A stretch of DNA of 64,000 bases, from positions 1-64,000 of the forward strand of contig NZ_JAHXBG010000034.1 of NCBI RefSeq assembly GCF_020103725.1, written 5' to 3'. Under the pieces are notes generated by a model. The model did not search any database. It was not told the origin of the DNA and saw only the letters and a program-made list of their open reading frames with translations. Of the stretch, positions 40,740 to 50,656 are shown in pieces (positions within the stretch are counted from its first letter, which is position 1; each line of letters opens with the position of its first letter). The stretch is from Hyalangium gracile. Its GTDB lineage: Bacteria; Myxococcota; Myxococcia; Myxococcales; Myxococcaceae. A program made the position numbers and the translations under genes.

Positions 40740-42533
40740 ATGCGCACTCGTCGTTTTCTTACGATCCTCCCGCTGATGCTCCTCGGGAGCTCCTGCGGTG
40801 TTGAGACCCTGGATGAGGCCGGTTCGGCCACAGTGAGCGCCCAGGACAGCGCCCTGTCGCAGGCGAAGGTGGCTCCGGGGCAGAGTGTGCGTCGTCTCCA
40901 GGAGGAGCATCCCGGCTTCCTCCGGGGCGTGGGGCAGCTGTCGTTCAAGCGCGGGCTGACCGACACGCGCGGCCAGCAGCACGAGCGCCTGGCGCAGCTC
41001 CACGACGGCGTCCCCGTCTTCGGCGCCGAGGCCATTGCCCACCTCAACGATGACGGCTCCATCGCGGAGGTGACCGACAAGCTGGTGCGCGACCTGCGCG
41101 TGGACACCACGCCCAAGCTCCGGGCGGACGAGGCCTCCAAGCGCGCCATCGCGCAGCTGGCCGGCTCCAGCGTGAAGGGCTCGCCGAAGGTGGACCTGCA
41201 GGTGCTCCCGCGGAGCGACGGCGCCCGGCTGACCTGGCGGGTGCAGTTCGAGGCCGTCAACGCCAAGGGCGAGCCGTCGATGCCCAACCTCTTCATCGAC
41301 GCGCACTCGGGCGAGCTCGTCATGCAGTTCGACAACCTGAAGACGGCGCGCAACCGCAAGACGTACACCGCCGGCAACGGCACCCGGCTGCCCGGAACGC
41401 TGGTTCGCTCCGAGGGGCAGGCCCCCTCGAGCGACGCGGTGCTGAACATGGCCCACGACAACGCGGGCTTCACGTACGACTTCTACTTCTCCAAGTTCGG
41501 GCGTGACAGCTACAACGGCGCGGGCGCCGTCCTCACCTCGTCGGTCCACTACAGCCGCAACTACGTGAACGCGTACTGGGACGGCGTGCAGATGGTGTAC
41601 GGCGACGGCGATGGCGTGGACTCCTCGGCGCTGACGGTGCTCGACGTGGTGGGCCACGAGCTCACCCATGCCGTCACCGACACCTCGTCGGACCTCATCT
41701 ACTCGAACGAGTCGGGCGCCCTGAACGAGGCCATGTCCGACGTCTTCGGCGCCTCCATCGAGGCGTACCGGGACGGCGCGGTGAGCGGCAACACCTGGAA
41801 GATCGGCGAGGAGTGCTGGACGCCGGCCACCGCGGGTGACGCGCTCCGCTACATGAACGATCCGGCGCTGGCGGGTGACTACGACTACTACCCGACGCGC
41901 TACACGGGCACCTCGGACAACGGCGGCGTGCACTGGAACTCGGGCATCGCCAACCTGGCCTTCAAGCTGATGGTCACCGGCGGCACCCACCCGCGCGGCA
42001 AGACGAGCAACGTGGTGCCCGCGCTCGACGCGAGCAACTCCTTCAACAGCCTGATGATGGGTGCGGCCATCTTCTACCGCGCCAACACCGTCTACCTGAC
42101 GCCGAGCAGCACCTTCAGTGACGCTCGCAGCGCCACCGCGCGGGCCGCCACCGATCTCTACGGCGCGACCGCGGCCGCCGCCGTCAACGAGGCCTGGAGC
42201 GCGGTGGGCGTGCAGCCGGCTCCGACCTGGACGACGCTCGCCACCCAGAGCAACCTCTCGGGTGCCCGGAGCAGCTCCACGAGCTTCAGCTACGTCACGC
42301 CGACCGGCGCCACGGGGATGAAGTTCGAGATGTCCGGCGGCTCGGGTGACGCCGACCTGTACGTGAAGTTCGGCAGCGCCCCGACGACCAGCAGCTACGA
42401 CTGCCGGCCCTACGCCGCTGGCAACGCCGAGAGCTGCACGTTCAACCCGGCGAAGCAGGGCACCTACTACGTGCTGATCCGCGGCTACTCGGCCTACTCG
42501 GGTGTGACGCTCAAGGTGAGCTCCGCTCAGTAA
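40740..42533 (+). CDS. Secreted M4 (thermolysin-like) metalloprotease
   Basis: 597-aa preproenzyme. An N-terminal export signal with a lipobox-like end (LTILPLMLLGSSC) is followed by an FTP/PepSY propeptide (~30-215) and the M4 catalytic domain: zinc ligands H306 and H310 in HELTH, E330 in SGALNEAMSD (24 residues after H306 as in thermolysin) and the catalytic His in NGGVHWNSGIANLAF. The C-terminal ~100 residues are a PPC domain (GDADLYVKFGSAPTTSSYDC to LIRGYSAYSGVTL) that is usually removed after export. A predation or nutrient-acquisition role fits myxobacteria. An AT-rich promoter precedes it and a strong terminator follows. Confidence 0.95.
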   Translation: MRTRRFLTILPLMLLGSSCGVETLDEAGSATVSAQDSALSQAKVAPGQSVRRLQEEHPGFLRGVGQLSFKRGLTDTRGQQHERLAQLHDGVPVFGAEAIAHLNDDGSIAEVTDKLVRDLRVDTTPKLRADEASKRAIAQLAGSSVKGSPKVDLQVLPRSDGARLTWRVQFEAVNAKGEPSMPNLFIDAHSGELVMQFDNLKTARNRKTYTAGNGTRLPGTLVRSEGQAPSSDAVLNMAHDNAGFTYDFYFSKFGRDSYNGAGAVLTSSVHYSRNYVNAYWDGVQMVYGDGDGVDSSALTVLDVVGHELTHAVTDTSSDLIYSNESGALNEAMSDVFGASIEAYRDGAVSGNTWKIGEECWTPATAGDALRYMNDPALAGDYDYYPTRYTGTSDNGGVHWNSGIANLAFKLMVTGGTHPRGKTSNVVPALDASNSFNSLMMGAAIFYRANTVYLTPSSTFSDARSATARAATDLYGATAAAAVNEAWSAVGVQPAPTWTTLATQSNLSGARSSSTSFSYVTPTGATGMKFEMSGGSGDADLYVKFGSAPTTSSYDCRPYAAGNAESCTFNPAKQGTYYVLIRGYSAYSGVTLKVSSAQ

Positions 42534-42559
42534 CTTCGAGCCACTCAGCAGAGCTCTTG

Positions 42560-42600
42560 TCGGCGCGGCCGCCCGTCCCGGGGCCGCGCCGATGTTTTTT
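42560..42600 (+). terminator. Intrinsic terminator after M4 protease gene
   Basis: An 11-bp perfect stem (42560-42570 with 42582-42592, TCGGCGCGGCC / GGCCGCGCCGA) is followed by TGTTTTTT. It lies 27 nt after the protease stop and just before the convergent lipoprotein gene. Confidence 0.9.
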
Positions 42601-42605
42601 CCTTC

Positions 42606-42986
42606 TCAGAAGATGCAGGCCCACCGGCTCGCGCCGCAGACGCAGATGCCGGGCGTTTCCTCCGCCGTGCAGCAGTCGAGCCGGGCGCGAGGCTCGTAGC
42701 AGCTCCTGCCGTTCGTGGCCTCGCAGCTGCGCCGGGTGGTGCACTCCGTGGGCGGGGTGGGGCAGTCCTGGCGGACGCCGTCACACGTCACGTGAAAGTT
42801 GTCGCTCGCGGTGCATGTCTCTCCCGTGCAGGACAGCGTGCTGCCGTCTCCGCAGGTCGCCGTACAGGTGACCAGGGCCGACTCGACGGTGGCCAGGCTC
42901 TGCTGAGCCGGGACCTCCTCGATACCGCCACAACCCATCAGCACCACGCCTGCGAGCACAACGAGAGGGAACCAACGACGCTTCAT
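42606..42986 (-). CDS. 126-aa Cys-rich lipoprotein (paralogue 1)
   Basis: 126-aa lipoprotein (signal ending VVLMGC, lipidated C19) with 14 further cysteines. It is a clear paralogue of the gene at 49091: same length, same number of cysteines and shared landmarks (RRW near the start, GCGG after lipidation, LVTC, HVTCDGV, a CC pair, CVCG and a W-x-C ending). The dense cysteine pattern suggests a small disulfide-bonded exported domain. AAGGAGC lies 5 nt before the ATG. It is transcribed from the ECF-like element at 43025-43050. Function unknown. Confidence 0.82.
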   Translation of the reverse strand: MKRRWFPLVVLAGVVLMGCGGIEEVPAQQSLATVESALVTCTATCGDGSTLSCTGETCTASDNFHVTCDGVRQDCPTPPTECTTRRSCEATNGRSCYEPRARLDCCTAEETPGICVCGASRWACIF

Positions 42987-43024
42987 GACTGCTCCTTGTC
43001 CGGTGTTCAGTGGAACCGATCAGA

Positions 43025-43050
43025 GGACAAGGGCTCCGGGCGTTTGTTGC
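43025..43050 (-). promoter_or_regulatory. ECF-sigma-like promoter of Cys-rich lipoprotein paralogue 1
   Basis: On the minus strand, GCAAC (43050-43046) and GTCC (43028-43025) are separated by 17 nt. The whole 26-bp segment is identical at 23 positions to the element before paralogue 2 (48988-49013), though the surrounding DNA is not alike. The AAC -35 and GTC -10 layout is typical of ECF sigma promoters. It lies 39 nt upstream of the ATG. Confidence 0.6.
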
Positions 43051-43120
43051 AGGCGCCGGGGGCAGGTGGGTGCACGAGGAGTGGCCTGCAAGGCACGTAC
43101 CTCTCGCTGGCCAGGAGGCC

Positions 43121-43723
43121 TCACCTCCCGGAGCCGCCCACGCCCTGCTGCCGCTCGGGGACGATCCACAGGTAGAGGGTGCGCCCGTTCATCTCCACCT
43201 CCTTGGCGGGCTTCCAGTCGCCCATGTCGAAGGCGTGCGACACGACGCGCGTCCCCGGCTTCAGCTCCGCCAGCAGCTTGGGCTTGAGGCGCTCGTTCAC
43301 GGTGGGCAGCAGGTAGAGCGTCACCACCGTGGCGTCCTGGATGTCGGCGTCGAACAGGTCTCCCTGGCGGAACTCCGCCCTGCGCGACACGCCGGCGGTG
43401 CGCGCATTCTCGTTCGCCTCGGCGATGCGCTCGGGGTCGATGTCCACGCCCACCCCGCGGGCCCCGTACTTCTTCACGGCGGTGATGACGATGCGGCCGT
43501 CACCGCTGCCCAGGTCGTAGACGATGTCCCGGGGCCCCACTCCGGCCAGCACCAGCATCTGCTCCACCGCGTCCTCCGGCGTGGGGACGAAGGGCACCTC
43601 CGGGGCGTCCGCCGCCTCCTCCACCGAGACGGGCGGCTGGGGCAGGATCAGCGGGGCCGTGTTGCCCTGGGCGAGAGCCGTGGTGCCGACCGCGAGTGAC
43701 AGCAGGAAGAGGATGCGCTTCAT
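43121..43723 (-). CDS. Exported class I methyltransferase-fold protein
   Basis: 200-aa protein with a signal peptide (MKRILFLLSLAVGTTALAQG) followed by a methyltransferase fold: VPTPEDAVEQMLVLAGV, SAM motif IVYDLGSGDGRIVITAV, acidic strand end GVGVDIDPERI, and FDADIQDATVVTLYLLP. DOT1-like and related small methyltransferases share this pattern. A leader on a SAM enzyme is odd because SAM is cytoplasmic; it may be a lipid or membrane methyltransferase or a non-enzymatic relative. The start overlaps the stop of the permease gene upstream (ATGA), so the two are co-translated. Confidence 0.8.
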   Translation of the reverse strand: MKRILFLLSLAVGTTALAQGNTAPLILPQPPVSVEEAADAPEVPFVPTPEDAVEQMLVLAGVGPRDIVYDLGSGDGRIVITAVKKYGARGVGVDIDPERIAEANENARTAGVSRRAEFRQGDLFDADIQDATVVTLYLLPTVNERLKPKLLAELKPGTRVVSHAFDMGDWKPAKEVEMNGRTLYLWIVPERQQGVGGSGR

Positions 43724-45159
43724 GTGGCCTCCTTGGGCTGTTGCAGGGAAATCGAGCGTGAGTCCCGCGCTGTCCGTCGGCTGGAGCGGCCTCGGCGCAT
43801 GCGCTCCGCGAAGAGCAGCACGGCGCCGGTGCCGAGCACGACCATGCCCGCCAGCGCTCCGATGCCCGCGTACGCCAGGCTGGAGTAGAGGACGTACGCG
43901 CAGGTGCCGATGAAGAGCAGGGGCGTGAGCGGGTACAGCGGGACGCGGAAGGGGCGCGGCGTACGGGGCTCGCGCCTGCGCAGGACCAGCAGGGACACCC
44001 CGGTCAGCAGGAAGAAGAGCCAGAAGACGGGCGCGGTGTACTCCACCATGGTCTGGAAGCCCTGGCGCGTCACCGTGCCCAGCCCCACCAGCGCCAGGGC
44101 GAGGGTGCCCTGCACCAGCAGCGCCTGGGCGGGCGTGTTGGCCCGCGCGTGCCAGCGGCCCAGGCCCTGGAAGAGCGTGCTGTCGCGCCCGAAGGCGTAG
44201 TGGGTGCGCGCGCCGGTGATCACCGTGGCGTTGGCGGAGGTGAGGGCGGACACGGCGACCAGGACGCAGAGGGCCTGCGCGCCTCCGCTGCCCAGCGCTC
44301 GCTGAGCCAGATCCGCGGCCACCGCGGACGAGCCGGCCATGCCCGCCAGGCCCAGGCCGCGCAGGTAGGCCCAGTTGACCAGCAGGTAGAGGGCCGTCAC
44401 CACGCCGATGCTCACCAGCAGCGCCCAGGCGAGGTTGCGCCGCGAGCCCTTCACCTCCGCGGAGAGCGTGGCCACCTCGTTCCACCCGCCGTAGGTGAGC
44501 AGGACGAAGACGAGGGCCAGCCCCCACGCGGCCATGGGCGAGCCGGAGGCCGGGGGAGGGGGCGCCGAGGGGGCGGGGGCCAGGAGCAGCCCCGCGACGA
44601 TGATGGCGCCCACGCCCAGCACCTCCAGCGCGGTGAGCACGTTCTGGGTGCGCGTGCCCTGCCGCACCCCGGCCACGTTCATGGCCGTCAGCCCCACCAC
44701 CACCGCCGCCGCGTACACCGAGGAGGAGTAGGGCCCCAGCGGCGCGAGCTGGGTGGCGTAGTCCCCGAACACGAAGGCCAGCAGGGCGATGGAGCCGGTG
44801 GGGATGACGGTGAGCCGGGCCCACGCGAAGAGGAAGGCGGGGCCCTGGCCCAGCGCGCGGTGGAGGTAGTGGTAGTCGCCGCCCGGGTGCGGCCAGGTGC
44901 TGGCCAGCTCCGCGTAGCACAGGGCGCCGATGAGCGAGGCCACTCCCCCGAGCAGCCACGCGAGCATCAGCGCCTGCTCACTGCCCAGCTGCGCCGCCAC
45001 CAGCGAGGGGGCCTTGAAGATGCCGGCCCCCAGGACGATGCCGACGGTGAGCAGCACCGCGTCGAGGATGCGCAGGGTGGGCGAGGGAGCGGCGGCCTCC
45101 ACCGCGGTTGCTGTCGCCTTCCCGCGCCGCCTGCCGGCCCTCGGCTTCTTCTCTCGCAT
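43720..45159 (-). CDS. APC-superfamily amino acid permease
   Basis: 479-aa inner-membrane transporter with about 12 helices. The APC signature VGIVLGAGIFKAPSLVAAQLG lies at helix 1, with YAELASTWPHPGGDYHYL after helix 2 and a charged, Pro-rich C-terminus. It starts at ATG 45159 after a run of basic residues (MREKKPRAGRRRGK); an upstream in-frame extension has no supporting signal. Substrate unknown; cationic or neutral amino acids are likely. It is co-translated with the exported methyltransferase, and a 14-bp palindrome lies 66 nt upstream. Confidence 0.88.
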   Translation of the reverse strand: MREKKPRAGRRRGKATATAVEAAAPSPTLRILDAVLLTVGIVLGAGIFKAPSLVAAQLGSEQALMLAWLLGGVASLIGALCYAELASTWPHPGGDYHYLHRALGQGPAFLFAWARLTVIPTGSIALLAFVFGDYATQLAPLGPYSSSVYAAAVVVGLTAMNVAGVRQGTRTQNVLTALEVLGVGAIIVAGLLLAPAPSAPPPPASGSPMAAWGLALVFVLLTYGGWNEVATLSAEVKGSRRNLAWALLVSIGVVTALYLLVNWAYLRGLGLAGMAGSSAVAADLAQRALGSGGAQALCVLVAVSALTSANATVITGARTHYAFGRDSTLFQGLGRWHARANTPAQALLVQGTLALALVGLGTVTRQGFQTMVEYTAPVFWLFFLLTGVSLLVLRRREPRTPRPFRVPLYPLTPLLFIGTCAYVLYSSLAYAGIGALAGMVVLGTGAVLLFAERMRRGRSSRRTARDSRSISLQQPKEAT

Positions 45160-45225
45160 GTGCCCCGCTCCGCGACCGAACCGTCCGATGCACGCCACAA
45201 GCTGCGCCGGCAGGGACTTCGCGGT

Positions 45226-45239
45226 GAGTGCTAGCACTC
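45226..45239. repeat. 14-bp perfect palindrome upstream of permease gene
   Basis: GAGTGCTAGCACTC is a perfect palindrome in the 161-nt gap between the permease start and the stop of the nuclease-fold gene. It is a good operator candidate. It contains both CIRCE half-sites in the wrong order and without the 9-bp spacer, so it is not a CIRCE element. Confidence 0.45.
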
Positions 45240-45320
45240 GGGCTCCCTGGGGCCTCGTCCGGGAGGAGAGGGGCCTCCCTGGCGGCTCGCCGGTGCCCGG
45301 GCTCCCAGGCGGGCAGTGCC

Positions 45321-46142
45321 TCAGGTGGCGGGCGCGGGAGACAGCTGGATGTCGGCCAGCACGCCGAAGTGGTCCGAGGGGAACTGGCCCTGATCATCGG
45401 GCTGGTCCAGCACGATCTTGCACGAGCGCACCTCGCCCCGTCCGTTCGACTCGATGGCCGTCACGAAGATGAAGTCCATGCGGCGGTCGTTCTCCAGCCA
45501 GCGCCAGCGGCGCGTGAGCGGGTTTCGCCGGGCCCACGTCTCCCCGGAGGCATCCTCGATGGGGTGCACGCGGGCGTAGGCGTCGTGCAGATACGCGCGC
45601 CGGCCCTCCAGCGTGTGCCGGCCTCGCAGGAAGCGGATCTCGTCGTGCTCGGGCGTGGCGTTGAAGTCGCCCGCGATGACGTTGGGGAGATCGCGCAGCT
45701 GGGCCCGGACGATGTCCGTCAGCACCACCACCTGCTGCTCGCGCATCACGCCGTTGTCGGGGTGGTGATCCAGGTGCGTGTTGAAGAGCCCCAGCAGGCC
45801 CGCCTGCGTCTCGATGAGCGCCTGCTGGACGATGCGGCCGCCCTCCGCCGAGGGCAGCGGCCACACGCGATGCTCCCGGATGGGATGGCGCGAGAGGACG
45901 GCGAGCCCCTCCTGGACGGCGCCGGGCTCGCCCTTCGCGCGGGCCCAGACGTGCTGGAAGCCGAGCCGCTCGGCCAGGGTCGCGGCCTGGTTCGGCAGGT
46001 GGTGCTCGTGCTCGCACACCTCCTGGAGCGCCACCGCGTCCAGGAAGAGGTCCGAGAGCCCGCGGCCGATGAGCTCCATCCGTCGGTCGATGGGCTCGCC
46101 CATGCCCATGAGGTTCAAGGTCACCACGCGGAAGGTCTTCAT
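45321..46142 (-). CDS. Endonuclease/exonuclease/phosphatase-fold hydrolase
   Basis: 273-aa protein of the DNase I-like EEP superfamily, starting at ATG 46142 (MKTFRVVTLNLMG). Conserved catalytic pieces are present in order: TLNLM, LQEVCEHEHH with the metal Glu, NTHLDHHPDN, GDFNATPEHDEIRFL, RRMDFIFV and PSDHFGV. No signal peptide is seen, so it is probably cytoplasmic. Substrates in this superfamily range from DNA to lipids and phosphosugars; none can be assigned. Confidence 0.87.
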   Translation of the reverse strand: MKTFRVVTLNLMGMGEPIDRRMELIGRGLSDLFLDAVALQEVCEHEHHLPNQAATLAERLGFQHVWARAKGEPGAVQEGLAVLSRHPIREHRVWPLPSAEGGRIVQQALIETQAGLLGLFNTHLDHHPDNGVMREQQVVVLTDIVRAQLRDLPNVIAGDFNATPEHDEIRFLRGRHTLEGRRAYLHDAYARVHPIEDASGETWARRNPLTRRWRWLENDRRMDFIFVTAIESNGRGEVRSCKIVLDQPDDQGQFPSDHFGVLADIQLSPAPAT

Positions 46143-46236
46143 GGGGGAAGCCTTATCCGGCCCCGCCCGTCGCGGCTCAGCTCGACGTGAGCGCGGTTCG
46201 TGAAGTGAACATCTCCGGGCCGCCCTGCCTGGCGGC

Positions 46237-48963
46237 TCACCTCCGGGAAGCGGCGGGGAGCTGGAGCTTGTCGAGGATCGCCTCCATCTCCTGGCGATCC
46301 TGGGGCGTGACGCTCGGGTCCTTCGCGAAGAAGGAGTAGCCCTCCAGCGCCAGCCGCCGCGCACGGGGCAGATCCATCCCCGCCCCGTGGAGCGCCTCGG
46401 CGAGGGTCAGGCCGATGGCGTGAGTCATGCTCGGGTGGCGACCGTCGATGCTCCGCAGGGCCTGCTCGAGCAGCGACACCGCCACGCGGTGATTGCCGAG
46501 CTCGATCTCCGCCTGCGCGAGTCTCCAAAGCGCGCCCGGCTTACGCGAGGGGCTGGGAGTCCCGAGCTCCTCGAGGATGGCGACCGCTTCCCGGGCGTGG
46601 CGCCTGGCCTCTTCCGTTCGCTCGAGGCCCAGCAGCGCCGCGGAGATGAAGTCGAGGTGCAAGGCCGCCCACTCCGAGCGAGGTCCCTCCACGTGCTGGC
46701 GGAGGGACAGGGAGCGCTGGAACAGCGCGAGTGCTCCGGCGAAGTCCCGCTGCAGGAGCGCCACCCGGCCCTCGAACACGAGGAGGTTCGCCACCAGGGG
46801 ACTCTCCGGCCCGGAGAGCTGCTCGCGCAGGCGCACGGCTTGCTGGAACGTGGCGCGGGCGGCGGGCAGCTCTCCCTTGCACTGCAGTCCCCTGCCCAGC
46901 GCGACGAGCAAGCCGAGGCTCTGGGGCGTGTTCGCGGCGGCACGCCTGTCCTCGAACGCCTTGGCCCGCTCGATGTGGGGCACTGCCTCGGCGCACCGGT
47001 CCTGCTCCATCAGCACCCCGCCGAGCATGCGCTCCAGGTCGGCCTCCAGCTGCTCGTCTCCCACCCGTGCGACCGCTGCCTGGGCCTCCCGGACGAAGTC
47101 GGCATCCACCGCTGGCATCAGCAGCATGTCGCCGTAGACGTAGACGAGGGCGATGCGAGCCTCCGCGACCAGTCGGTCATAGCGGCCGGCTTCGGCGGCC
47201 CACACCGCTTCCAGCAGCGCCTCCTCGGCCTGCTTCGCCTTGCGATCGCTCATGTAGAGGCGACCGAGCTCCTGGAAGGCCTCCGCTCGCGTGGGGGCGT
47301 GCGCCAGCTCTGGCAGCCGCTCGCGCACCGCCGCCATCAGCTCCAACCCCCGCACGTGTTGCCCGAGGGCGCGCAGGGCGCGCACCTCGCTGAGCTGTCG
47401 CTTGATGGACTCTACCAGTTCGCGCGCGGGGCCTTGCGCGGGCAGGCCCTTGATCGCGGCCTGGGCATGCTGCGCGGTGCAGGACTCTAGCTCGGGGAGT
47501 CCCCAGGCCGCGCTGGCGGCGGTGTGGACGGAGCGGGGGCGCTCGCGCGAGAGCAGCTCCGTCAGGGCCTGGAAGTCACGGGCCCGATGCTCGAGGCACT
47601 GCATGCGCGCATCGAGCAGGGACTCGGACTGCTGTCCGTGAACCCGCGTGGCCTGGCAGGCCTCGGTGTAGTGGGCCACCCACTCGGCGGAGTAGCTGTC
47701 CAGGGCTCTGTCGACTTCCCTCCACGCGGTCTCGGCCAGCGCGTCGCCCCCGGAGAGCAGCTCCGCGCGCACGGCCTGCCTGCGCTCCGGTCCCCAGAAT
47801 CGCTCCCAGCGCTTCTGCCCGTCCTGGCACGGCTGTGGCTCTCCCCATCCTCCGCCCACCACGCCACCCACCACGAGCAGCCCCGCCGCGGCCGCCACTG
47901 CCAGGGGGATGCGCCAGGTGGAGAGCGGCTCACGCGCCAGCGCCGCGAGCAGCTCGCGCATCGAGGCGAAGCGCTCCTCCGGAGTGGGAGAGAGGCCGCG
48001 CTGGAGCACGCGGCGGATGCGCGCGGGAACCCGGGGGTGGCGCGGCAGGGGAAGGGTAGCGGGACGCTGGCCGCAGAGCGCCTCGTGGAGCGCGACGCAG
48101 AAGCTGTACTGGTCGGTGCGCGCGTCCACCTCGCCGCCCTCGAGCTGCTCGGGGGCCATGTACGCGGGAGTGCCCGCCCGCGAGCCCCTCCACGTCGTCC
48201 TGGAGGACAGAGAGGAGGGGAGGGCGCCTGGCGCTCCCGCGGCCTCGGGCAACGTGTCCGGGCCCTCCATCAGCCGGGCCAGTCCGAAGTCCGTCACCTG
48301 CACCCGCCCGTCCCGGCGGATGAGGACGTTGGAGGGCTTGAAGTCCCGGTGGACGATGCCCGCCGCGTGCGCCGCGTGCAGGCCCTCGCCGGCGGCGAGA
48401 AACACCTCCAGCACCTCGCGCCGGGGGCGGGGCCGCTCGCGCAGCCAGCTCTCCAGCGTGCCGCCGTCGGCGAACTCGAGGGCGAGGAACAGCTGCTCGC
48501 CGATCACCCGGGCTTCGTAGAGCGTCACCACGTTGGGGTGGGAGAGCCGAGCCAGGGCCTGGGCCTCGGTGAGCAGCCACCGGCGCCGCGCCTCGGGCGA
48601 GCCCTCGAGCTGCCGCGGCCCCTTGAGCAGCTTCAGGGCCAGCTTGCGGTCCAGCGCCGGGTCGAACGCGGCATACACCACGCCCATGCCCCCCGCGCCG
48701 AGCTCTCCCAGGATGAAGTAGCGATCCAGCCGGGCGCCTGGGACGAGCGGAGGCAGCTCGCCCTCCTGCTTCGGCGGCATCTCCAGGGACTCGGCCCGGG
48801 CCAGCTCTCCGACGAGGCGTTGACACAGCGCGCAGTCGTCCAGGTGCGAGTGGAGCCCCTCGGCGCGCGCCTCGGGCAGCGCGCCCGCCACGAACTCCAG
48901 GATGACGTTCTCGTTGGGGCACTCCATCACTTCATGGACGGTCGGAGTTGGCGGTTGTTGCAT
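46237..48963 (-). CDS. Ser/Thr kinase with N-terminal anti-sigma-like zinc motif and TPRs
   Basis: 908-aa protein. Residues ~15-60 contain H40-x3-C44-x2-C47 in a helical context (FVAGALPEARAEGLHSHLDD), as in zinc-binding anti-sigma factors. The kinase domain (~80-345) has LGAGGMGVVY, K111, HRDFKPSN (H205-R206-D207) and D225FG. A membrane helix lies at 352-373. The remaining ~530 residues are helical with many TPR-like units (EALLEAVWAAEAGRYDRLVA, FAGALALFQRSLSLRQHV), presumably outside the membrane. This is a common myxobacterial kinase type, but the ZAS-like head is notable given the ECF-like promoter in its divergent intergenic region. Confidence 0.9.
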   Translation of the reverse strand: MQQPPTPTVHEVMECPNENVILEFVAGALPEARAEGLHSHLDDCALCQRLVGELARAESLEMPPKQEGELPPLVPGARLDRYFILGELGAGGMGVVYAAFDPALDRKLALKLLKGPRQLEGSPEARRRWLLTEAQALARLSHPNVVTLYEARVIGEQLFLALEFADGGTLESWLRERPRPRREVLEVFLAAGEGLHAAHAAGIVHRDFKPSNVLIRRDGRVQVTDFGLARLMEGPDTLPEAAGAPGALPSSLSSRTTWRGSRAGTPAYMAPEQLEGGEVDARTDQYSFCVALHEALCGQRPATLPLPRHPRVPARIRRVLQRGLSPTPEERFASMRELLAALAREPLSTWRIPLAVAAAAGLLVVGGVVGGGWGEPQPCQDGQKRWERFWGPERRQAVRAELLSGGDALAETAWREVDRALDSYSAEWVAHYTEACQATRVHGQQSESLLDARMQCLEHRARDFQALTELLSRERPRSVHTAASAAWGLPELESCTAQHAQAAIKGLPAQGPARELVESIKRQLSEVRALRALGQHVRGLELMAAVRERLPELAHAPTRAEAFQELGRLYMSDRKAKQAEEALLEAVWAAEAGRYDRLVAEARIALVYVYGDMLLMPAVDADFVREAQAAVARVGDEQLEADLERMLGGVLMEQDRCAEAVPHIERAKAFEDRRAAANTPQSLGLLVALGRGLQCKGELPAARATFQQAVRLREQLSGPESPLVANLLVFEGRVALLQRDFAGALALFQRSLSLRQHVEGPRSEWAALHLDFISAALLGLERTEEARRHAREAVAILEELGTPSPSRKPGALWRLAQAEIELGNHRVAVSLLEQALRSIDGRHPSMTHAIGLTLAEALHGAGMDLPRARRLALEGYSFFAKDPSVTPQDRQEMEAILDKLQLPAASRR

Positions 48964-48987
48964 TCCAGGGTGCCAGAAATCGTCGGC

Positions 48988-49013
48988 GCAACAAACGCCG
49001 GGTGGCCTTGTCC
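48988..49013 (+). promoter_or_regulatory. ECF-sigma-like promoter of Cys-rich lipoprotein paralogue 2
   Basis: GCAAC (48988-48992), 17 nt, GTCC (49010-49013). It matches the minus-strand element at 43050-43025 at 23 of 26 positions with identical spacing. It lies 78 nt before ATG 49091, in the gap shared with the divergent kinase gene. Confidence 0.6.
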
Positions 49014-49090
49014 AAAGGCTGGAACGGACTCAGCCGTTCCGCGCGAAGCGGCCGTGGGGCTCATGGGCCGCGCTCATCAAAGGAGAGGTC

Positions 49091-49471
49091 ATGAATCGCC
49101 GTTGGGTTTCACTTGCCGTGCTGTTGGGAGCTGTCCTGGTCGGGTGCGGGGGCGTCGAGGCCGAGCCAGAGGTGGTGCCTCCCGTGAGCGTCGCCAGCAC
49201 CTCCCAGGAGCTGGTCACCTGCTCCGCGAACTGTGTGATGGGGGAGCGCGTCTCCTGTCAGGGCTCGACGTGCTCCGCCACGGATTACAGCCACGTGACG
49301 TGTGACGGCGTCACGACCTTCTGCCCCACGTGTGATGACCACCCCTACTGCGAGTTCCTGCACGGGGGCTCCTGCGCTCCGAAGGGCTCCACGATTCCGT
49401 GCTGCTTCCTGGGCGGTGGCGGAGAGGGTGGCTGCGTCTGCGGCAATGGCGAGTGGATCTGTACGATTTGA
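49091..49471 (+). CDS. 126-aa Cys-rich lipoprotein (paralogue 2)
   Basis: 126-aa lipoprotein starting at ATG 49091 with AGGAGAGG just upstream. The signal ends AVLVGC with the lipidated Cys at 19; the mature part has 14 cysteines. It shares length, cysteine count and the LVTC, SC-x-G-x-TC, HVTCDGV, CC, CVCG and W-x-C landmarks with the gene at 42606, while the regions between differ, so the duplication is old. It is divergent from the zinc-motif kinase. Function unknown; a small disulfide-rich surface module is likely. Confidence 0.82.
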   Translation: MNRRWVSLAVLLGAVLVGCGGVEAEPEVVPPVSVASTSQELVTCSANCVMGERVSCQGSTCSATDYSHVTCDGVTTFCPTCDDHPYCEFLHGGSCAPKGSTIPCCFLGGGGEGGCVCGNGEWICTI

Positions 49472-49582
49472 CGCAGGCGGTATTTCAGCGGTCCTCTGTC
49501 CGAGGTCCCGCGCCGCGGGCGCAAGGTCTGGAGGAGGCCTTGGGCCTGCGGCTGTCTCGGGCGTCATGTTAAGGAGGGGGCC

Positions 49583-50656
49583 ATGCCCCTCTCTCTCGGA
49601 CACGTCTTGCTTGCGACGCTCGCGCTGGCGGGCTCGAAGTCCAACCCTCCTCGCGGCGCCGCGCCCACGGGCGCGACGGGCCCCGCGCTCTCGCACCTGA
49701 AGAGCCGGGACCCCGACGCCTGCGACTGGGTGCGGCAGCCCATCCCCTCGGGAGAGCCGACGACGGTCTTCTCCTTCGACAGGAACTGCGCCTCGGCCGT
49801 CGTCTCCTGGAGCCGCGATGGCAAGCAGGGCCTCGTCTTCGTCAGCGGGGATGGCCCGGACGCCAGCTCCATTGCCTGGCGGGTGGATCTGGTGAACCGC
49901 ACGGGTGCCCCGCTGGAGCTGCGCGGCCTGCCCGAGGAGAAGGGCGCCGCGGACACGGACCTGCCCATGATCGAGCAGCTCACCTTCGATCCCCAGGGCC
50001 GCCCGGTGGCGCTGGTCAGCTACACGCCCGCGCTGCAGCCCCCGGAGCCGGGGCCGGACGGCAAGCGGGCCATCTCCTTCCAGGGCGAGCGCTTCCCGGT
50101 GGCGGGTGGGCAGGGAGAGCCGACGCTCGTCATGGCCTGGCGGCTCGAAGGGGACACCTGGAAGCGCGTGGAGGTGAAGGCCACCACCTCCGGCGGCTTC
50201 GAGTCCCTCAAGCTCTTCCGGACACTGCAGCGCACGGCCTCACAGACGGCGGTGGGCCAGGCCAAGGGCAAGGCGCTGCCTCCCAAGGATCCCGCCCGGA
50301 AGGTGCTGAGCGCCGCGTTCCCGGACAAGAAGGACGGCGCAGAGGCGAAGTGGCTGCGGCTGACCACCTCCGGCGGGCCGCTCTACTACCGCCGGGAGCA
50401 GGCGGGAGATGGCTTCTCGGACTTCGCCCCCGTGCGCTGGGGCGCCAAGGGCGGCAAGCTGGCGCCGGTGGAGGGCGTCCCGGACGCCAAGGAGACCGCG
50501 GTGTCCTTCCAGCTCCAGAAGGATCTGCTGCTGGTCGACGTCGGGACGAGCCCTCGGCCCAAGACGCTGATCCTCGACGCGAAGACGAAGAAGATCCTCC
50601 TGGCGCAGGAGGATCTCATCGCCCCCGCCCTCTGGCCTCAGCCGTCCAAGCGCTGA
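49583..50656 (+). CDS. Exported protein, function unknown
   Basis: 357-aa protein with a short signal-like N-terminus (LGHVLLATLALAGS) and a mainly beta-rich body. AAGGAGG lies 5 nt before the ATG, a very good ribosome binding site. No family or catalytic motif recognised; a DACDWVRQPIPSGEPTTVF stretch near the start and a two-cysteine pattern in the first 70 residues are the only landmarks. It converges on the phosphatase gene with 19 nt between stops. Confidence 0.7.
   Translation: MPLSLGHVLLATLALAGSKSNPPRGAAPTGATGPALSHLKSRDPDACDWVRQPIPSGEPTTVFSFDRNCASAVVSWSRDGKQGLVFVSGDGPDASSIAWRVDLVNRTGAPLELRGLPEEKGAADTDLPMIEQLTFDPQGRPVALVSYTPALQPPEPGPDGKRAISFQGERFPVAGGQGEPTLVMAWRLEGDTWKRVEVKATTSGGFESLKLFRTLQRTASQTAVGQAKGKALPPKDPARKVLSAAFPDKKDGAEAKWLRLTTSGGPLYYRREQAGDGFSDFAPVRWGAKGGKLAPVEGVPDAKETAVSFQLQKDLLLVDVGTSPRPKTLILDAKTKKILLAQEDLIAPALWPQPSKR

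Follow-up and report, generated by a model that had tools for sequence, protein, structure and literature searches.

The window analysed here, 64,000 nucleotides of the genome of Hyalangium gracile, a soil predator bacterium, holds two diverged Cys-rich lipoprotein genes that share one ECF-like promoter element. Judged from sequence comparison, we regard as real a narrow set of putatively co-regulated Cys-rich lipoproteins whose genes have a specific ECF-like promoter. The candidate sigma factor is encoded elsewhere in the genome, and a candidate gate for this sigma factor within the window. The explanation that we favour, and consider probable, is that the set constitutes a small regulon of one gmx1-type ECF sigma factor, which would be gated by a kinase carrying a ZAS motif. 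The features of the window on which this proposal is built are the following (identified by ORF calling, alignments, Pfam, motif and mismatch searches, and hydropathy).

42606..42986, minus strand: Cys-rich lipoprotein paralogue A, 126 aa, lipobox C19 and 14 further cysteines (ORF, alignment)
43025..43050, minus strand: putative promoter element A, GCAACAA-N13-TTGTCC, GCAACAAACGCCCGGAGCCCTTGTCC, ending 38 nt before the ATG of A
46237..48963, minus strand: receptor-type kinase with Hx3Cx2C (ZAS-like) motif, Ser/Thr kinase domain, one TM helix and TPR repeats (Pfam, motifs, hydropathy)
48823..48846, minus strand: Hx3Cx2C motif HLDDCALC, kinase residues 40-47, conserved in both orthologues
48936..48961, minus strand: tentative weaker element copy with two core mismatches at the 5' end of the kinase gene (mismatch search)
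48988..49013, plus strand: putative promoter element B, GCAACAA-N13-TTGTCC, GCAACAAACGCCGGGTGGCCTTGTCC, ending 77 nt before the ATG of B
49091..49471, plus strand: Cys-rich lipoprotein paralogue B, 126 aa, lipobox C19 and 14 further cysteines (ORF, alignments)

Two Diverged Lipoprotein Genes and Their Family

Paralogues A and B are transcribed divergently at a distance of 6.1 kb, and their products are 49% identical over 99 aa (BLASTP), with 15 invariant cysteines in the alignment, namely C19 of the lipobox and 14 others. In these respects the pair is as the sequence-only reading had described it, that is, two diverged 126-aa Cys-rich lipoproteins with a common 14-cysteine layout, about 6 kb apart and in opposite orientation. 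By inspection, both proteins have a hydrophobic stretch followed by a lipobox (LMGC/LVGC) at C19, as lipoproteins do; nearly all other aligned members of the family were chosen for having a lipobox. Neither A nor B matched a Pfam or NCBIfam family at E ≤ 1. The AlphaFold model of the lipoprotein is of high confidence at residues 41-126, and the comparison of this model with solved folds gave no convincing resemblance (best values: Foldseek E 1.8; VIA Z 3.2 over 44 residues).

A third paralogue lies on another contig of the source genome (G000, 11.7 Mb; G000:C22:162882). Protein searches with A and B gave matches at E ≤ 0.001 in 55 of the 96 genomes of the bacterial family, many of them in several copies. 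No orthologue of lipoprotein B was found in a scan of the named genome collection. Among the matches listed, 150 ORF matches from the fetched loci represent 133 different proteins after trimming of the starts, and 61 of these 133 have exactly 15 cysteines. The comparison of upstream regions was based on 83 gene entries whose lipoprotein start could be recognised; duplicates and entries with an unclear start were dropped.

Some further observations were made on members and neighbours of the family. The lipoprotein of G038, a genome of the same genus, has just 101 aa (L127:9638-9943) and is missing a central stretch with several cysteines; its gene still has the element and sits directly before the genes for the sigma factor and the kinase. 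At G000:C18:217696-217845 there is a weak match to part of the family sequence that contains a TGA in frame; this is perhaps a decayed gene copy. Convergent with lipoprotein A, the window encodes an M4 (thermolysin-like) metalloprotease with a PPC domain (40740-42533, plus strand).

A Specific Bipartite Element Upstream of Five Lipoprotein Genes

The upstream blocks of A and B are identical at 23 of 26 positions, as had been noticed from the letters alone. A 26-mer with 23 matches was reached in none of 2000 dinucleotide-shuffled pairs of the 200-bp upstream regions (maximum 20), and with up to three mismatches to the full 26-bp block, elements A and B are the sole places in G000. The pattern GCAAC-N17-GTCC, which had been put forward as the specific consensus, had to be given up as a genome-wide signature, since it is unspecific, with 150 places in G000 compared to 388 for the reversed control. 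A specific core, GCAACAA-N13-TTGTCC, was instead derived from the third paralogue and the homologue in the relative G042, which have the same element with a different spacer. This core occurs at exactly three places in G000 (reversed control one), each before one of the three paralogues, and at one place in G042 (reversed control none), before the Cys-rich lipoprotein gene of that genome. G038 has a copy with one mismatch, GCAACAA-N13-CTGTCC, before its lipoprotein gene, which is also the only match to GCAACAA-N14-TGTCC in that genome (reversed control two). Thus, the further copies that had been expected before related genes are found at the third G000 paralogue, in G042 and, with one mismatch, in G038. 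The other 94 genomes hold seven places with the GCAACAA-N13-TTGTCC core, the reversed control being commoner there, and by coordinates none of the seven is at a family lipoprotein among the matches listed. With the spacing altered to GCAACAA-N12-TTGTCC, no place was found in G000 and G042, and the altered pattern is present in 4 of the 96 genomes. Among the 83 lipoprotein gene entries, an element with at most one mismatch stands before five, all of them in G000, G038, and G042, while the other 78 have at least three mismatches, and so do control patterns that were reversed or given a wrong spacing. A second lipoprotein of the family, more distantly related, is encoded in G038 and in G042, and in neither genome does its gene coincide with a place of the element.

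When the five elements are compared, the first seven and the last five bases are invariant, and 11 of the 14 positions in between vary; fixed ends with a variable middle are the pattern that is expected of -35 and -10 boxes. The element and its placement, which are read directly from the sequence, have the features of an ECF promoter, in that it is bipartite with an AAC-type -35 box, has a fixed spacing and lies a short distance before the gene. CorE and further ECF systems of Myxococcus xanthus likewise have AAC in the -35 box, and good conservation of this AAC among ECF promoters, both in M. xanthus and in other bacteria, is reported in PMC3107203. Alternatively, the block might be the operator of a repressor or activator, for example as a dyad ACAA-N13-TTGT, with an ordinary promoter elsewhere. 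ACAA and TTGT are indeed inverted complements, and a true inverted repeat, TTGTTGC..GCAACA, is present upstream of family genes in other genera. However, the conserved ends GCAACAA and TGTCC do not form a full palindrome, the G038 copy breaks the TTGT arm, the linked regulator is a sigma gene, and the spacing, the AAC of the -35 box (PMC3107203, in part) and the place before the ATG fit a promoter, so that we consider an operator very unlikely. That the block is a residue of duplication without function, kept by chance, is scarcely credible: the five genes are related by descent, but their flanks and spacers have diverged whereas 12 core bases are fixed, with proteins that are 40-47% identical to copy A, and no shuffled pair in 2000 matched the A-B block.

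In a tree of the family, a branch of weak support (61/76) has all five element genes on the same side, so that the sharing of the element is partly due to common descent; the three genomes are related as well. The putative promoter is best read as having been inherited together with the lipoprotein gene and kept by selection.

A wider regulon was looked for with GCAACAA-N14-TGTCC, which has five further places in G000, two in G042, and one in G040, and this idea was rejected: by coordinates, none of the seven places in G000 and G042 is at a listed gene of the lipoprotein family. Five of the seven (L008, L262, L263, L258, and L261) are inside an ORF on either strand, and for the remaining two (L259 and L260) no ORF was called over the site in the 3-kb locus. 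With regard to RNA elements, there was no Rfam match at E ≤ 1 within 42000-50000, and hairpins in the 5'-UTRs gave z -2.5 in G042 and -1.3 to +0.1 in the other four.

Lipoprotein genes of two other genera (L026, L032, L038, L041, L043, and L045) show by eye the inverted repeat TTGTTGC..GCAACA upstream, followed downstream by a TTGACG..TGTACGGTG stretch. Possibly, this is a different control region that is also conserved, a half-site of which resembles the -35 box described here.

A gmx1-Type ECF Sigma Factor as Candidate Regulator

The candidate sigma gene lies outside the window at C8:184341-185135 of G000, where it stands alone without a kinase gene. Its product scores 279 bits against NCBIfam TIGR03001 (Sig-70_gmx1, sigma-70 factors of Myxococcales family 1) and the G042 protein 273 bits, at a cut-off of 154.6, and TIGR02937 is matched with 56.7-57.6 bits compared to a cut-off of 42.9; in Pfam, region 4 is over the cut-off and region 2 is not reported. 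A profile search against solved sigma factors returned 25 sequences at E ≤ 0.01 (best 4e-11), with ECF sigma factors at the top. The structural model aligns with region 2 of sigma-E (Z 9.6, 3.0 Å, 96 residues) and with region 4 of SigL (Z 8.7, 4.0 Å, 76 residues), whereby helical models at Z 8-10 can match through their common arrangement alone. We classify the candidate as an ECF sigma factor with sigma2 and sigma4 domains only.

The G000 and G042 proteins are 76-77% identical, and the next paralogue has 49%. Orthologues were found in 3 of the 96 genomes of the family at E < 1e-100 (G000, G038, and G042; next G051 with 4e-78), and a search of the order (145 genomes, E ≤ 1e-80) retrieved the same three. 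A scan of the named genome collection with the alignment of the sigma factors yielded 23 loci with an identity of at most 46%. No site with up to three mismatches to the element was present within 400 bp before the start of the sigma gene in G000 and G042. The sequence-only reading had suggested a sigma factor of the envelope-stress type; the candidate is instead a gmx1 protein (TIGR03001) accompanied by a Hanks kinase with a ZAS motif, not an RpoE/RseA pair.

A ZAS-Motif Receptor Kinase in the Window

The gene at 46237-48963 encodes a kinase with matches to Pfam Pkinase (2.4e-37) and TPR_12 (2.8e-21); possibly, the ATG at 48927 is the start that is conserved. The Hanks motifs that were looked for are all present (P-loop 89, HRD 205, DFG 225, APE 270), and hydropathy analysis gave one strongly hydrophobic stretch at about 352-370, after which the TPRs follow. 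The ZAS-type Hx3Cx2C motif occurs in the kinases of all three genomes, in two of which the kinase gene is adjacent to the sigma gene. Against zf-HC2 (PF13490), the window kinase scores 14.2 bits, below the cut-off of 22.2, and the G042 orthologue 24.6, above it. The window kinase is 61% and 58.5% identical to the sigma-adjacent kinases of G042 and G038, respectively. Since kinase paralogues are common (60 of the 96 genomes at E ≤ 1e-150), the orthology of the kinases rests on the gap in score between those of G000, G038, and G042 (1681-1768 bits) and the next one in G051 (784 bits).

Tentatively, the kinase gene has a further copy of the element at its 5' end. Such 26-bp GCAAC..GTCC sites, weaker than those before the lipoprotein genes, were seen at the kinase genes of G000 (48936-48961, minus strand) and G042 (L067:13038-13063, minus strand). 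Sites with two mismatches number four in 647,272 positions, these two among them; one is also present in 1 of 35 upstream regions of paralogous kinases, and the kinase gene of G038 has none. With a weight matrix that includes the spacer, the G000 site ranks 12th of 622,682 positions with a score at background level. Together with element B, it would make back-to-back promoters. In G051, a 26-bp GCAAC..GTCC site with two mismatches is located between the sigma and the kinase gene (L274:4427-4452, plus strand).

Linkage and Co-occurrence of Sigma Factor, Kinase, and Lipoproteins

As far as examined, the sigma factor, the kinase, and the element-bearing lipoproteins occur together in the same 3 of 96 genomes. 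In G042 the order is sigma-kinase-element-lipoprotein, with the sigma and kinase genes on the strand of the lipoprotein gene, and in G038 it is element-lipoprotein-sigma-kinase. In G000 the kinase gene adjoins and diverges from that of lipoprotein B, and the sigma gene is unlinked to the kinase and to the three lipoproteins, so that its assignment there rests on orthology. We looked at 125 loci, nearly all of them fetched for family lipoproteins and about 3-20 kb each, except that three are only the rest of contig C34; the candidate sigma gene is present in the G042 and G038 loci only. More distant kinases with 31-35% identity are encoded in three of these loci. The domain layout, linkage, and co-occurrence can be taken from the sequences as they stand, and the linkage and co-occurrence support the earlier suggestion of co-regulation, probably by one ECF sigma factor.

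It might be that the element is the promoter of another ECF sigma factor and that the gmx1 sigma factor and the kinase are mere neighbours in two relatives. This would be compatible with the 60 PF08281 matches in G000 and with the unlinked candidate in that genome. However, sigma factor, kinase, and element-bearing lipoproteins were found in the same 3 of 96 genomes, sigma and lipoprotein genes are neighbours in two of the three, and among the 125 loci the candidate is found at those of G042 and G038 only. We therefore regard another sigma factor as unlikely, and the gmx1 protein remains our candidate.

The association of such sigma factors with kinases extends beyond the lipoproteins. In the distant relative G051 the sigma gene adjoins a kinase gene, and the 12-kb stretch examined gave no short Cys-rich ORF. 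Among 39 gmx1 sigma loci, which comprise the best matches of a few relatives and the named loci of at least 9 kb, a related kinase is encoded within 1.5 kb in 29, and Hx3Cx2C stands near the N terminus in 26 of these kinases; the resulting 26/39 is a rough fraction, with ORFs taken from the longest start, a few overlapping calls and some contigs ending near the sigma gene. In the paralogous gmx1 loci L128 (G040), L129 (G042), and L130 (G000), the sigma gene is overlapped or followed by a short ORF that codes for a signal-peptide-like stretch and precedes the gene for a ZAS-motif kinase; perhaps this is another unit of sigma factor, kinase, and exported protein.

Discussion

According to our proposal, the 26-bp block would be the -35/-10 promoter of the small regulon. 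The C8 sigma factor would recognise GCAACAA (-35) and TTGTCC or CTGTCC (-10), 13 bases apart, and transcribe the three dispersed Cys-rich lipoprotein genes, two of which are in the window. The kinase encoded at 46237-48963 would be the partner of this sigma factor. Its TPR region should be periplasmic and sense a cue, while its ZAS-like part would hold the sigma factor at the membrane until the kinase frees it or otherwise activates it, possibly with phosphorylation as the trigger of release. Binding of the sigma factor to the element, ZAS-like sequestration, the topology of the kinase, and the signal are what we infer from the data described above.

With regard to known systems, the candidate sigma proteins belong to TIGR03001 by score; the name of this model gives no target promoter, and in the present case GCAACAA-N13-TTGTCC and Cys-rich lipoproteins are linked to one subfamily. 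The pair resembles ECF sigma factors with ZAS anti-sigma factors (zf-HC2, PF13490), in that Hx3Cx2C is found in a partner encoded beside the sigma factor (G042, G038). Unlike in the usual ZAS anti-sigma factor, the motif is fused to a kinase, a TM helix, and TPRs, and the window copy is below the Pfam cut-off. The pair also resembles ECF43 (EcfK/PknS of Xanthomonas citri and EcfP of Vibrio parahaemolyticus), where, according to PMC13147305, an ECF sigma factor goes together with a Ser/Thr kinase that spans the membrane and has its TPRs in the periplasm. In the ECF43 switch, a phosphorylated Thr replaces the acids of DxxD in region 2.2 (excerpts of PMC13147305 and PMC8103513), with QTTA at the DxxD positions (PMC13147305, in part). 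The kinase could activate the sigma factor by phosphorylation of region 2.2, as in EcfK/PknS and EcfP, and not by ZAS-like holding. The kinase-TM-periplasmic TPR layout is that of PknS of X. citri (accessible part of PMC13147305), and the catalytic motifs that were looked for are present. However, by hand count on profile alignments, the three sigma orthologues have F-V-[D/E]-E at the DxxD positions, residues that include neither Ser nor Thr and retain the second acidic one, unlike QTTA of ECF43 (PMC13147305, in part), and they do not have the replacement of DxxD by uncharged residues with a phosphorylatable Thr or Ser. The kinase also differs from that of ECF43 by its N-terminal Hx3Cx2C. Because the ECF43-type replacement of DxxD is absent from the sigma factor, we prefer sequestration by the ZAS-like part and hold activation through region 2.2 to be rather unlikely; other sites of the sigma factor may be phosphorylated.

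To our knowledge, there are many sigma factors and Ser/Thr kinases of Myxococcaceae without known targets. In genomes of this family, the number of sigma factors is about 55-65 and that of Ser/Thr kinases about 90-125 (PMC7694542). In the titles and abstract openings of the open-access literature, we found no description of the element promoter or of pairs of gmx1 sigma factors and ZAS-motif kinases, and the term TIGR03001 did not occur in the literature matches listed. As far as these searches show, the lipoprotein case would be the first such pair with a proposed promoter and regulon. It would connect a single expanded family of disulfide-rich surface lipoproteins with one sigma factor, one kinase, and one promoter sequence, in a regulon that is small enough to be tested in a few mutants. 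A possible anti-sigma role of ZAS-motif kinases could readily be tested on this case, and the promoter signature would be a starting point for other gmx1 sigma factors. More tentatively, the gene neighbourhoods raise the possibility that myxobacteria hold widespread one-protein sigma gates, that is, receptor kinases with an N-terminal ZAS motif that are each paired with their own gmx1 sigma factor. If true, sensing, kinase activity, and sigma sequestration would be combined in a single membrane protein.
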